Source: Bdellovibrio sp. ZAP7
GTDB taxonomy: Bacteria; Bdellovibrionota; FAC87; UBA2466
NCBI GenBank assembly: GCA_945878405.1
Contig: CAMCTJ010000003.1
Location: forward strand, 62,001 to 126,000
DNA: 64,000 nt
Direction: 5' to 3'
The notes beneath the pieces were generated by a model that searched no databases, was not told the origin of the DNA, and worked only from the letters and a program-made list of their open reading frames with translations. The position numbers were made by a program, and so were the translations under genes. The stretch's first letter is position 1. Each line of letters begins with the position of its first letter. Shown piece after piece: positions 2,062 through 11,291 of this stretch.

Positions 2062-3513
2062 TTATTTCAAGCCGTGTAAGTCTAATCGACCACGCGAAAC
2101 AACTTTATCAGCCACGGATTCTGTTTCAGTTGAAAGTTCCATGAGCTGTTTTGCAACGCTTTGAGCGCTCATTTTTGGATCTGTCGACCACAACGCTGCA
2201 GCTGCTCCTGCTACGTGAGGAGTCGCCATTGAGGTTCCATCCCAAGTAACAACAATCTGCCCAAGGTTGATGATCGTGTCCTGATATTTATCGCCGGGAA
2301 CGGTTGAGAGAATTTTCACGCCAGGGGCAGCGATCTTAACGCTCTTTTGTCCCCAGTTTGAAAAAGTGGCTAAATTATTTTCGGCATCAATTGCAGCCAC
2401 TGTGAAGACATTTTCTAAAGGATAAGCAGCGGGGTACACTGGTTTTGGATCGTTATCGATATCAAATCCGGATGCCCCACCTTGGCTATTGGCTCGTCCA
2501 TTTCCTGCAGCAGCTAAAAAGAGAACGCCTTTTTTCCCAGCGCGCTCAATAGCTTCTTTGAGCAGGCCATCTTCTTCTTGTTCGCCATCTGATTCGCCAC
2601 CCCAGCTAGCATTGATGACGTTAGCACCGTTATTGGCAGCGTAATCAATCGCGGAGATTGCTTCGGCTGTCCCGCCTTGGCCGCTTTCGCTGATAAATCG
2701 AAGAGCCATCAGCTTAACATTAGGAGCAAGGCCAACAATCCCTAACTTGTTGTTAAGGGCCGCCCCAATACATCCGGCTACGTGCGTTCCGTGACCAGGG
2801 TTTCCACCCTGAAGAACGATATCCATCAGGCTCAGTGTAAGGTCATAGGGTTTGTCATCGTTGGAGGCAAAATCCCAACCTACGATATCGTCGATGTATC
2901 CGTTGTTGTCGTTGTCGATTCCGTCGCCAGCAACTTCTTTTGGGTTGCGCCACATGTTTGCGATTAAATCTTGGTGATTGTAGTCAACGCCCGTATCCGT
3001 TACGGCAACTACGATTTCTTTGCCCCCGGGAGTTTTTTTCCACGCCCCAGCAGCATCTACAGCAGACATCCCCCACTGTTTACTGAACAGGGGATCGCTA
3101 CCAGCGGTTTGCTTGGAAGGCTTTTTAATTTCTGGATTATCTGGATAAGGGGTGTTTGCTGCGGGCTTGGGTTCTTCTTCAGAGCGCTCAATCGCTTCTG
3201 CTAAACGAGCACGGTTTTCTTCTAAAGAAGGGCTTAAGAAAATTTTGAGTTTTCGGTTTGGCTCCATCTTTACAACCGGAGAGGTGCCAGACTTCTTTCC
3301 GCCAACCCATTTCATGTTTAGACCGTTTTTAGGAGTCGACCACTTGTAAACTTGTCCTTCTCGGCTAACTAATTCCAAAACGCCACCGTTTTGGTCTAAA
3401 AAAGCTTTTTCGTCTGCGGGAGTGGAGGATTTCAGCTTAACAACATACTCAGCGCCAAATACAAACGAAGAACATGAAAGCACTAAAGCAATGCTGACGA
3501 GTTTTTGAATCAT
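2062..3513 (-). CDS. Secreted subtilisin-like (S8) serine protease
   Basis: 483 residues with a signal peptide (about 1-20), a propeptide-like region to about 145 and an S8 catalytic domain. The triad is visible: Asp173 in AVTDTGVDYNH, His241 in GHGTHVAG, Ser428 in GTSMATPHVAG, with oxyanion Asn338 in AAAGNG. A Ca-binding-like insert GDGIDNDNNGYIDD (about 197-209) follows the Asp block. The start is supported by a GGGGGA ribosome binding site just upstream. The product probably digests protein in the periplasm or outside the cell. The upstream region holds two adjacent inverted repeats (3561-3575 and 3577-3586) that could bind a regulator. Confidence 0.93.
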   Translation of the reverse strand: MIQKLVSIALVLSCSSFVFGAEYVVKLKSSTPADEKAFLDQNGGVLELVSREGQVYKWSTPKNGLNMKWVGGKKSGTSPVVKMEPNRKLKIFLSPSLEENRARLAEAIERSEEEPKPAANTPYPDNPEIKKPSKQTAGSDPLFSKQWGMSAVDAAGAWKKTPGGKEIVVAVTDTGVDYNHQDLIANMWRNPKEVAGDGIDNDNNGYIDDIVGWDFASNDDKPYDLTLSLMDIVLQGGNPGHGTHVAGCIGAALNNKLGIVGLAPNVKLMALRFISESGQGGTAEAISAIDYAANNGANVINASWGGESDGEQEEDGLLKEAIERAGKKGVLFLAAAGNGRANSQGGASGFDIDNDPKPVYPAAYPLENVFTVAAIDAENNLATFSNWGQKSVKIAAPGVKILSTVPGDKYQDTIINLGQIVVTWDGTSMATPHVAGAAAALWSTDPKMSAQSVAKQLMELSTETESVADKVVSRGRLDLHGLK

Positions 3514-7453: not shown

Positions 7454-10138
7454 GTGATTCAAAAACATCGCATGATTGCGCTCTTTTTTGCGGCGATTTT
7501 CGCTTGGTCCGGGGTTGGCCAAGAGACCAGCTGTTATGATCTCTGGATCCGCTTGCGCGAACAGAAACTCAATTCTGAGCCAATGACCCTGAAAGCAAAA
7601 GACACAGAAACCGAAATGGCATTTGCTTTTGAAAAGGAGGGAAGCTGGTTTCCCGAGCTTCCTAAGGGATGGTTTGAGTTAGATCAAAATTATATGAAAC
7701 GGGCCCTTCAAATACGAGCCCGAGCCGAGGCAGAAGGTAAGAAGGAAAACGTTCTTCTGAAAATGCTGAAACGTTATTTGGATGCTAGCGATCCAAAATG
7801 GGTTATGGCACCCGCATCCGTTCGTCGTTCTATGACCAAAGCTCAGTGGTCTAAAATGACCCCGCAAGAGCAAATCGAATTTTTATTCCAATCTGGAGAT
7901 GTTTTAAAAAGGCTCACCCGAACGGGACTGGGCCATCTTTTCTATGAAGAAGTTTTAAACTTTGCACGGCTTCGGCCGGGCTCCAAAAAACCAGAGAGCG
8001 TAAACATTACGGATGATTTGGGTTCTTATGAGCTCGTCAGTCGCGGAGAAACGAACCGAAAAACGTTTCAGGAAATGCGAAAGGAAATTGAGGATGCTCT
8101 CGATGGACCGATTGGTCACCAGCATATTGTGCACGCTTGGCCCGCCGATCGAGAAGCCCGAGCCAAGTTAGCCCCTAAGTATTTGGAGCTTTTAGATGCA
8201 GGGACTTGGTTTTTGTATTGGCGTCAAATGGAGCGAAATCCCGAGGACGTTGAATCCATTTTAGGTCATGAATATTTAGGAATTTATCCGAAAAGCTCGC
8301 TCAAAAGATTGCAGGATCGCATGGTAGAGGGCGACTCTGAGCATGCTAGAGACAAATATAGGATGATTGGTTTTCGCTCGATGCGAGGAAGAGAATCTAT
8401 GCCGGGCCAGGATCCCAAGCAGTTTTATCCGGATTTTGAACTTCGCTCGGGGAACAAAGGTGTCAAAAGGGATTTTATGGAGGATATGCTCCAAGCCCGA
8501 TTGGCCTCCGGAGATTATTCAGGATTAAAAGATTTCAATTCGCATTCGGTTGATCCAGGAGCTCCCGTAAGAAAAATTGCACCCGACTTATCTTCTGAGC
8601 AACTCTCAACGTTAGAGTCCTTTGAAGCAGCTATGCCCAAGTTGAGATCGGCCAATCGACAATACAGAAAAGATTTGCGGAACAAAATTTTCTCACCCCT
8701 GCTGAATTGGGAAGAGAGACTGCCCATGGATTTGGGGGGCGAAGGCCTCAGAAAGGCTCGACAGAAATATGCCGAGGAATTAACAGCTATCGCGAAAGAG
8801 TATTTAAAACGTCAGGCAAGAACACAAAAGCCAGAGTCTCACGAGCGCCTCTGGGACGAGACCCAGCAACAAATTGAAAAGGCAGTTTATGAATTTGCAA
8901 AAGCTACAAAACTCTCGAAGGCTTTTGAAGGCTACTTAGTTCCAAGACCTGAGCAACTCCCAGATATCCGTGTTGCGGCTTCTGGTCCTGTCGACGTGAA
9001 CAAAATCGATTTGGGGATTGAGTTCAGTTTTAGGTTCCTCAATTCCCCTGCAAATAAAACAGAAGCAAGCGATAGAATTTATAAAACGGTCAGCGAGCTG
9101 GCCAAAGCTCTTGGCGCATCCGAGGTTCGAGATCTTGAAGATCCCACGGCGCACGGCCATGGACTGGGAATGAAGTTTTTGATGGTGGATGAAAATGGAA
9201 AAAAATGGAGAGTCGAGTGGGATGGCGTTCAGCGCTTCTACCGACAAGGAAAGCCCTACGCCCCCCAGGGCGGGCACATCGAAATTCCTTCACCCAAAGC
9301 GGCGCCTCAAGACATGACCCAAATCAAAGCCCTTTATGAAACCAATCGAGCGCTGGGACAAGTTCCGAACAGGGCAGCCGGCGGAGCGCACATTAATATT
9401 GATCTCAAGCCATTTTTTAGTCTTTCTGAAACAGAGGGAGCTCGAAAGTTTGTCGACTTTCTTAATCATTTTGAAAACAACCGAGAAATGATCCAGTTTT
9501 TGTGGCAGCATCCGTATAGAACAGCCGCCGCATTCCCGCTGGAGATGTCTTCCTCGCTCAAAGAAAAACTGAATCAGTTTTCTGGCACTTGGGATGACCT
9601 CGCTCGATTGCTTTATCAGGAGCGCTATTTCAACCCGTATGTAAGCCGCAAACCAGGCTATACGCAGCTGAACGCAACAGCTTTAATGTCGGGACTTGTT
9701 CCGGACGCCTATCGAGAAACCATTGATATCAAAAACCCTTCAACCGAGTGGTTCCCTGCGTTTGGTGGAAAGGGTACAGACCGCGTTGAACTGCGGCTTT
9801 TCGATGCTCCGCCCGATGAGTACCTGGCAGCTCTTCAAATTAAGTATATTCGAGCGTTACTGAATAAAAGCATCAATGCTGCGGGCAATATCGGAATTCA
9901 GAAAAAATACGGAGCCGAAGATTTTAAAGATTGGAAAGAGGATGCAGGATCATTTTCGGAAGCCGCAAAAGCCCATCTGACCGATTTGGGTTTAGATCCT
10001 AAAGAGTTTTTACCGCTGCTTGTAGATGCGCATCAAGTCCAACAAGTCGAGCTGCCAAAGCCGAAGCCGCTTGTTGAGTTTCCCAATTTCCTCCCGCTTC
10101 AAGACGAGCGTTGGAGTCCCTCTCAAAATAAACAGTAA
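7454..10138 (+). CDS. Large exported protein with an amidoligase-like (glutamine synthetase-fold) C-terminal domain
   Basis: 894 residues with a signal peptide (ALFFAAIFAWSGVGQ, GTG start 7454; ATG 7472 is an alternative). The first 500 or so residues are charged, helical and unrecognised. From about residue 510 the order of motifs resembles the GS-like amidoligases: GIEFSF, then GGHIEIPSPK, AGGAHINIDL, and RVELRLFDAPP with a following helix. That family makes amide bonds with ATP, often on peptides or cell-wall material. An export signal on an ATP-dependent fold is odd. The family call rests on motif order only. The gene stands alone between the M23 peptidase and a second protease. Confidence 0.55.
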   Translation: MIQKHRMIALFFAAIFAWSGVGQETSCYDLWIRLREQKLNSEPMTLKAKDTETEMAFAFEKEGSWFPELPKGWFELDQNYMKRALQIRARAEAEGKKENVLLKMLKRYLDASDPKWVMAPASVRRSMTKAQWSKMTPQEQIEFLFQSGDVLKRLTRTGLGHLFYEEVLNFARLRPGSKKPESVNITDDLGSYELVSRGETNRKTFQEMRKEIEDALDGPIGHQHIVHAWPADREARAKLAPKYLELLDAGTWFLYWRQMERNPEDVESILGHEYLGIYPKSSLKRLQDRMVEGDSEHARDKYRMIGFRSMRGRESMPGQDPKQFYPDFELRSGNKGVKRDFMEDMLQARLASGDYSGLKDFNSHSVDPGAPVRKIAPDLSSEQLSTLESFEAAMPKLRSANRQYRKDLRNKIFSPLLNWEERLPMDLGGEGLRKARQKYAEELTAIAKEYLKRQARTQKPESHERLWDETQQQIEKAVYEFAKATKLSKAFEGYLVPRPEQLPDIRVAASGPVDVNKIDLGIEFSFRFLNSPANKTEASDRIYKTVSELAKALGASEVRDLEDPTAHGHGLGMKFLMVDENGKKWRVEWDGVQRFYRQGKPYAPQGGHIEIPSPKAAPQDMTQIKALYETNRALGQVPNRAAGGAHINIDLKPFFSLSETEGARKFVDFLNHFENNREMIQFLWQHPYRTAAAFPLEMSSSLKEKLNQFSGTWDDLARLLYQERYFNPYVSRKPGYTQLNATALMSGLVPDAYRETIDIKNPSTEWFPAFGGKGTDRVELRLFDAPPDEYLAALQIKYIRALLNKSINAAGNIGIQKKYGAEDFKDWKEDAGSFSEAAKAHLTDLGLDPKEFLPLLVDAHQVQQVELPKPKPLVEFPNFLPLQDERWSPSQNKQ

Positions 10139-10229: not shown

Positions 10230-11291
10230 ATGGGTAGGGGAATCCGTACTTTTCTTTTTTTGCTTTTGATGTCTTCGGCGGCGGTTGCCAAGGAAAACTT
10301 ACCGCCACCACTCCAAAAAATTCCCGATCTTCAGCACGCCCCCGATCCCCTAATGGCAAAGGCGTGGCACTTGGAAAACATCAAAGCCCCAGAAGCGTGG
10401 AAAATCAGCCAGGGAAGCGCCGATGTTACTTTAGCGGTTATCGATAGCGGGGTTAATTACAACCACCCCGAATTAATTCACCGAATTAAGCGAAAAGAAA
10501 GCGAATGGCCCGCTAACGGGGTGGACGATGACAATAATCGATTCGTTGACGACGTTATTGGGTGGGATTTTGTTCGAGGTCTCCACCTTCCTATGGATCG
10601 CACCGGTCACGGAACGGCAATGGCGGCCATCATGGCGGGAACCTTAAATAATGGAGAAGGGGCAGCTGGCGTCTGTCCTAATTGTTCCATTATGCCCATC
10701 CGTTTTATTAATTGGGAGGGCCTCGGAGATACCGAAGATGCTATCAGCGGAATTTATTACGCGGTTCGAGAAGGGGCATCGGTTCTTAACATTTCTTTTG
10801 CTGGCGAAGGGTATGACCGAGACCTACTCGACGCTATTCGGTTTGCGGCGAAGCACGATGTAGTAGTGGTTGTGGCCTCGGGAAACGATGGCGAAAGCTT
10901 GAACGACTCTTCGGTCTATCCCGCTAAATTTCAAGAAGAGAACATGCTGACTGTGACAGGAACGGACAGCGAAAATAAATTATTTGATGGGGCTAATTGG
11001 AGTTCCAAGTATGTTTCAGTGGGGGCTCCTGGCGACGAGATTATTGAGCCATGGTTTAAGAACTGGGATGTAGGAAGTGGAACATCTCAAGCGACCGCCG
11101 TTGTGGCAGGCGCAGTTGGGCTTGTGCGATCGATTGCACCGAGCTTAACGGCTTCCGAAGTTGTCTCTTTAATTAAAGCCACAGTTCAAGTTCACCCGCA
11201 CCTTGAAAAAAAGGTGATGACTAGTGGAATTTTAGACGTTGCTCAAGCTGCCAAATGTGCTAGTCACAAAGGGCATCCCTGCCTTCGTTAA
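10230..11291 (+). CDS. Secreted subtilisin-like (S8) serine protease, compact form
   Basis: 353 residues with a signal peptide (1-20, ending SSAAVA) and almost no propeptide before the S8 domain. Triad: Asp72 in AVIDSGVNYNHPEL, His127 in RTGHGTAMA, Ser286 in GSGTSQATAVVAG, oxyanion Asn219 in ASGND. It shares with the protease at 2062-3513 the acidic insert GVDDDNNRFVDDVIGWDF after the Asp block, so the two are probably paralogues. The serine motif reads GTSQA instead of the usual GTSMA/S, which is tolerated in the family. An AAGGGA motif lies upstream of the ATG. Confidence 0.92.
   Translation: MGRGIRTFLFLLLMSSAAVAKENLPPPLQKIPDLQHAPDPLMAKAWHLENIKAPEAWKISQGSADVTLAVIDSGVNYNHPELIHRIKRKESEWPANGVDDDNNRFVDDVIGWDFVRGLHLPMDRTGHGTAMAAIMAGTLNNGEGAAGVCPNCSIMPIRFINWEGLGDTEDAISGIYYAVREGASVLNISFAGEGYDRDLLDAIRFAAKHDVVVVVASGNDGESLNDSSVYPAKFQEENMLTVTGTDSENKLFDGANWSSKYVSVGAPGDEIIEPWFKNWDVGSGTSQATAVVAGAVGLVRSIAPSLTASEVVSLIKATVQVHPHLEKKVMTSGILDVAQAAKCASHKGHPCLR

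Follow-up and report, generated by a model that had tools for sequence, protein, structure and literature searches.

A divergent glutamine synthetase-fold protein, probably exported, and its S8 protease partner in Bdellovibrionota

Ligases of the glutamine synthetase (GS) fold use ATP in the cytoplasm. The described groups closest to the protein analysed here are the Amidoligase_2 family (PF12224), which includes phage amidoligases, the YbdK/GCS2 enzymes, and Dop. According to passages of two papers, Dop is a GS-fold depupylase that hydrolyses amides with ADP and phosphate, and its metal ligands are Glu8 and Glu10 (PMC8599861, PMC7947786). Passages of another paper predict peptide ligation for the R2K clade and point to a possible secreted member in the related CDC123 family (PMC4431377). 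Exported GS-fold proteins were not reported in the literature searched, where the excerpts of PMC12419801, PMC12239564, and PMC12096838 concerned other topics.

The window that we analysed, a stretch of 64,000 nt from Bdellovibrio sp. ZAP7 (source genome of 2.24 Mb in 24 contigs), encodes an 894-aa protein in an ORF with a GTG start. An ATG at residue 7 is an alternative start, and the N-terminus is hydrophobic with either. The four motifs that had led the initial annotation to an amidoligase-like domain are all present in the C half of this protein, among the following features:

7454..10138, forward strand: gene of the probably exported GS-fold protein, 894 aa (ORF, motifs, model, and fold search)
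8966..9943, forward strand: C half, residues 505-830, predicted GS-fold amidoligase-like domain (model, fold searches, and relatives)
9014..9031, forward strand: GIEFSF, residues 521-526, variant ExE motif (51-member alignment)
9206..9226, forward strand: WRVEWDG, residues 585-591, with W585, E588, W589, D590, and G591 identical in 51/51 members (alignment)
9269..9298, forward strand: GGHIEIPSPK, residues 606-615 (alignment)
9377..9406, forward strand: AGGAHINIDL, residues 642-651 (alignment)
9782..9802, forward strand: RVELRLF, residues 777-783 (alignment)

With the Amidoligase_2 proteins, the window protein shares the predicted GS fold, the order of the motifs, and the match of its model to viral amidoligases. 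Unlike them, it has no match to the family profile, has ExS/T in place of ExE, is probably exported, carries a large N half, and has an S8 protease as partner. The likeness to YbdK/GCS2 lies in the fold (Z-score of 12.9 with 1r8g) and in an ExR strand followed by D-x-P (VEVRVMDTP versus VELRLFDAP); when aligned by eye, LGIEFS, AHINID, and RVELRLFDAP of the window protein correspond to LGIELE, QHVHVG, and TVEVRVMDTP of YbdK. Yet YbdK has an intact ExE (LGIELE), is 372 aa long, and has no such N half. Dop, as far as the passages cited above describe it, has in common with the protein the GS fold, a possibly hydrolytic chemistry, and a link to protein degradation, and the profile of the family matches it at E 0.48 only.

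The C half and its kinship with amidoligases

Taken alone, the window protein falls in no family of Pfam or NCBIfam (its single matches, at E 2.5 and 0.11, are under the cut-offs). Amidoligase_2 gave no match to it with HMMER at E up to 10 and filters on, a search of its own genome with PF12224 gave none either, and nothing significant came from NCBIfam, PHROGs, and the PDB sequences. Of the 368 genomes searched in the phylum, 61 match a profile of the C half at E≤0.001, 3 of these weakly. Conservation among relatives, which had been proposed as a check, is thus found across the phylum, in Bdellovibrionales, Bdellovibrionaceae, and Oligoflexia metagenome assemblies among others. Some members are long (1806-2127 aa), and what they have in addition to the shared region mostly follows it. 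No relatives of the family were found in the viral contigs, plasmids, and phages searched. A same-genus copy in genome G002 (L001, L010) is interrupted by stops, reflecting decay or an assembly error.

AlphaFold2 produced from 17 sequences a model with a mean pLDDT of 78.5 and a pTM of 0.79, in which segments 564-572 (around the HGH motif), 601-605, and 758-763, near the motifs, have a pLDDT below 50. A single-sequence run (pLDDT 37.3) was left unused. GS-type enzymes make up 49 of the 50 Foldseek matches listed against the PDB, where all E-values exceed 0.001 (best 2.7e-3). The VIA-align Z-scores are 13.3 for a GS, 13.1 for 1tt4, and 12.9 for 1r8g (YbdK); the alignments with 1tt4 and 1r8g cover 247 residues, between residues 514 and 869, with rmsd of 4.6 and 4.8. 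The entry 1tt4 comes from Salmonella, under the title predicted glutathione synthase; we take it to be a YbdK orthologue. The first named matches in the BFVD structure search are viral amidoligases (E 2.0e-4, 5.0e-4, and 5.4e-4). Profile-profile comparison gives weak support for a relation to amidoligases (E 9.5e-4 at a probability of 22, and E 0.0043 when 51 sequences were used). Among the relatives, the Amidoligase_2 cut-off is passed in the C half of 3 of the 10 scanned (L002, L005, and L024), and 10 of 17 members match this profile at E≤1 (best 7.5e-7).

A predicted fold unrelated to glutamine synthetase would have told against the initial annotation. The Foldseek, VIA-align, and BFVD matches, together with the Amidoligase_2 matches of the relatives, argue instead for a GS-like fold, since the model resembles GS and YbdK in the PDB and amidoligases in BFVD. 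In summary, the model and the relatives show the C half to be a divergent domain of predicted GS fold and amidoligase type. The kinship with amidoligases holds through the relatives and not through the window protein itself, which is a variant of the GS-fold amidoligase kind outside Amidoligase_2 proper; we did not place it in that family because it failed both the score and the ExE tests.

We counted residues in 51 non-redundant full-length members, aligned from 55 profile matches after leaving out two duplicates (L109 and L112, of L006 and L007) and two members with missing N-termini (L118 and L137). Also outside this set are the contig-end fragments G007, G012, and G013, the interrupted G002/L001 copy, and the members without a full-length sequence. 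Residues E523, E588, D590, E610, H646, D650, R732, K733, E779, and R781 are identical in all 51 members, and N648 in 50. The motifs are not there by chance, because E523, E610, H646, D650, E779, and R781 are among these invariant positions. The proposed check of the ligand residues gave a divided answer: the putative ligands are invariant, but the ExE motif is not intact, its second acidic residue (position 525) being replaced by Ser in 40 members and by Thr in 11. Following GS numbering, we presume that E523, H646, and E779 would match the metal site beside the nucleotide, and position 525 the site beside the substrate. If this correspondence is combined with the alignment, one site therefore looks complete and the other altered.

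The N half and the probable export signal

A large N half of no known family was described in the initial annotation, and the Pfam scan agrees: it gave no family for this half and only single chance-level matches. The features in this part of the protein are:

7454..7522, forward strand: probable Sec signal peptide, residues 1-23, with start GTG1 or ATG7 (sequence and N-termini of relatives)
7571..8548, forward strand: N half, residues 40-365, undescribed conserved domain, possibly a second GS-like domain (no Pfam family, invariant residues, and model)
7631..7639, forward strand: EKE, residues 60-62, identical in 51/51 members (alignment)
8027..8032, forward strand: YE, residues 192-193, first part of a [YW]E...GHQ motif (alignment)
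8114..8125, forward strand: GHQH, residues 221-224 (alignment)
8438..8446, forward strand: ELR, residues 329-331, with E329 and R331 identical in 51/51 members (alignment)

Residues E60, K61, E62, W229, E329, R331, G333, and R349 are identical in the 51 members, all of which also have [YW]E and, further on, GHQ or GHH. In the model, the motifs of the N half are predicted to sit on strands 56-62, 191-195, 222-226, and 324-330, in the same order as those of the C half. We hypothesise from these motifs that the N half might be a second GS-like domain. Comparison of N-half profiles with the C half and with amidoligases using hhalign gave no support (best E ~0.009, with reversed controls reaching 0.034), and the N half of 38 long-branch members matched the C half at E 0.011 with the motifs out of register. 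In such a tandem arrangement, the N half would hold the complete ExE/E/H/ExR set and the C half an altered one.

The export signal of the initial annotation finds an echo in the relatives, where the hydrophobic N-terminus seems to be kept. The members with an N-terminus have a hydrophobic stretch near the start, mostly preceded by basic residues, and in 18 of 51, counted by eye, the stretch ends with a lipoprotein-like Cys. A hydrophobicity score of at least 2.0 is reached by 41/51 members, 157/252 neighbour ORFs, and 1/11 classical amidoligases, and a score of at least 1.6 by 48/51 members versus 177/252 neighbour ORFs, many of which also look exported. The score thus separates the family from the classical amidoligases and not from the neighbour ORFs. 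The start codons of the relatives were chosen partly by hydrophobicity, a bias that favours export signals. Because the score does not discriminate and the choice of starts is biased, we relied on the look and the conservation of the N-termini, which suggest that the protein is exported.

A dedicated S8 protease and other neighbours

The gene lies, as initially annotated, between an M23/LytM peptidase upstream (PF01551, 4.7e-35) and an S8 subtilase downstream (PF00082, 1e-41). In this two-neighbour setting, the protease persists across families, whereas the LytM gene is found only within the genus. The downstream gene is:

10230..11291, forward strand: S8 subtilase, dedicated partner gene (neighbourhood, PF00082, and co-occurrence)

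It follows the family gene directly and on the same strand in the window, in L001 and L004 (same genus), and in L007, L047, L048, and L129, which amounts to five families. L045 also has it nearby, one gene away and on the opposite strand. Repeated adjacency by chance is unlikely because the genomes have just 8-14 S8 matches each (8 genomes). In L002, L003, and L005 (genus g6), genes other than S8 follow the family gene. The window S8 protein, searched in the 368 genomes, has matches at E≤1e-80 in 13, and all 13 carry the family protein (G013 as a fragment). A fourteenth genome, G052, has a match at E 6.9e-62, and five further genomes, with matches at E 1e-62 to 1e-68, are without the family protein. 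The 13 genomes are related and therefore not independent; six belong to genus g6, where the S8 and family genes are on different contigs. The members from S8-carrying genomes form one clade in the FastTree of the C half (support 1.0). This clade includes L006. In its genome, G209, the best S8 match (2.2e-55) is not a clear orthologue, and a papain-like protein is encoded directly downstream of the family gene, in the place of S8. Another 14 loci, which all belong to family f9, encode homologues of this papain-like protein close to the family gene but on the other strand. The Pfam scan of the L006 protein gave no match, and its likeness to papain is our reading of motifs in an alignment of 10 of the 15 proteins of this type. 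L044 has downstream a Peptidase_C1 protein over the cut-off (E 1.1e-5). Neighbourhood and co-occurrence show that one secreted S8 protease is the dedicated partner of the family protein. This lasting association with proteases suggests that the substrates are peptides or proteins.

Two other observations concern this neighbourhood. The window encodes a second S8 subtilase (2062-3513, reverse strand), which is not the conserved partner. In 15 loci, the gene immediately upstream encodes an exported-looking protein (L044:6486-7457 and homologues); the 11 of these proteins that were aligned share an invariant CxxC.

The association with a dedicated protease could also mean that the protein is a non-catalytic member of the GS fold, serving as chaperone, inhibitor, or substrate receptor for that protease. 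The tightness of the link with one S8 orthologue, the papain-like replacement in L006, and the loss of one ExE residue are consistent with such a role. Yet all 51 members agree in the polar motif residues of the two halves, beyond the needs of binding alone, and the genomes of the members outside the S8 clade gave no S8 match at E≤1e-60, which makes us consider this role quite unlikely.

The upstream neighbour bears on another proposal of the initial annotation, that of a cell-wall enzyme acting with the LytM peptidase. BLAST found homologues of the M23/LytM gene only in the window, L001, and L004, all of the same genus, among 48 loci (some with short flanks). The neighbour is thus poor evidence for work on the cell wall, and the argument built on it was not supported by the comparison. 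The M23 gene does adjoin and the protein is probably exported, but the upstream cluster also contains genes, PP2C and PmbA/TldD among them, that have no link with the wall, and a function of this sort now seems improbable.

Amide chemistry with or without ATP

We favour, with a probability of roughly 0.4, an exported two-part enzyme with a GS-fold C half and an S8 partner, which would perform amide chemistry outside its own cytoplasm and preferably without ATP turnover. In peptides or proteins located there, such an enzyme would make, break, or exchange amide or isopeptide bonds at a carboxylate. Amide hydrolysis or transfer might proceed without ATP turnover, as in Dop, whose site holds ADP and phosphate, and the S8 protease might trim the same polypeptides or activate the enzyme. 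We prefer ATP-free hydrolysis or transfer because the ExE motif is altered and the location is presumably poor in ATP, and hydrolysis of the Dop type would suit such a place.

Other proteins of the phylum are relevant to the use of ATP. Exported-looking proteins of ~800 aa (L144:2068-4455, L145:2359-4857, L146:3320-5716, and L147:3143-5602) have Amidoligase_2 and, at the C-terminus, an ATP-grasp-like domain of the R2K type; L147 alone exceeds the R2K cut-offs, and L145 is at E 0.03. The ExE is intact in L144, L146, and L147, and reads GIKVE in L145. Exported Amidoligase_2 and R2K proteins share with the family an export-like N-terminus, an amidoligase-type domain, and the phylum, but differ in that their ExE is mostly intact, some have an ATP-grasp domain, and the family profile does not match them at E 1e-20. 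Exported users of ATP are therefore possible in this phylum. The family protein could then be an exported ATP-dependent ligase that adds amines or amino acids to proteins in the cytoplasm of another cell, or wherever ATP is. In favour of such a ligase, it has kept the first Glu, the His, and the Glu of ExR, and some relatives belong, by their record titles, to lineages known for predators (this concerns those lineages, not the present genus). On the other hand, all 51 members have S/T in place of the second acidic residue of ExE, and the lipoprotein-like members (18/51, by eye) would be tethered to their producer. We hold such a ligase to be somewhat unlikely.

A broader view is that Bdellovibrionota export a whole set of enzymes of the peptide-ligase type. 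The tandem GS-like domains would act together as one exported amide-bond machine, paired with the protease, and the amidoligase-ATP-grasp fusions would be its cousins; we regard this view as speculative and unlikely. Any use of ATP would confine the exported enzymes to sites where ATP is available, e.g., inside prey. Either the GS fold has come to serve an amide chemistry that needs no ATP and takes place outside the cytoplasm, or ATP-dependent modifying enzymes are exported to places that hold ATP; the protease inherited with the family protein offers a direct way to test both. Apart from these proteins, L143:328-2976, in which no export-like N-terminus was seen, has Amidoligase_2 fused to a helicase (ResIII and Helicase_C).
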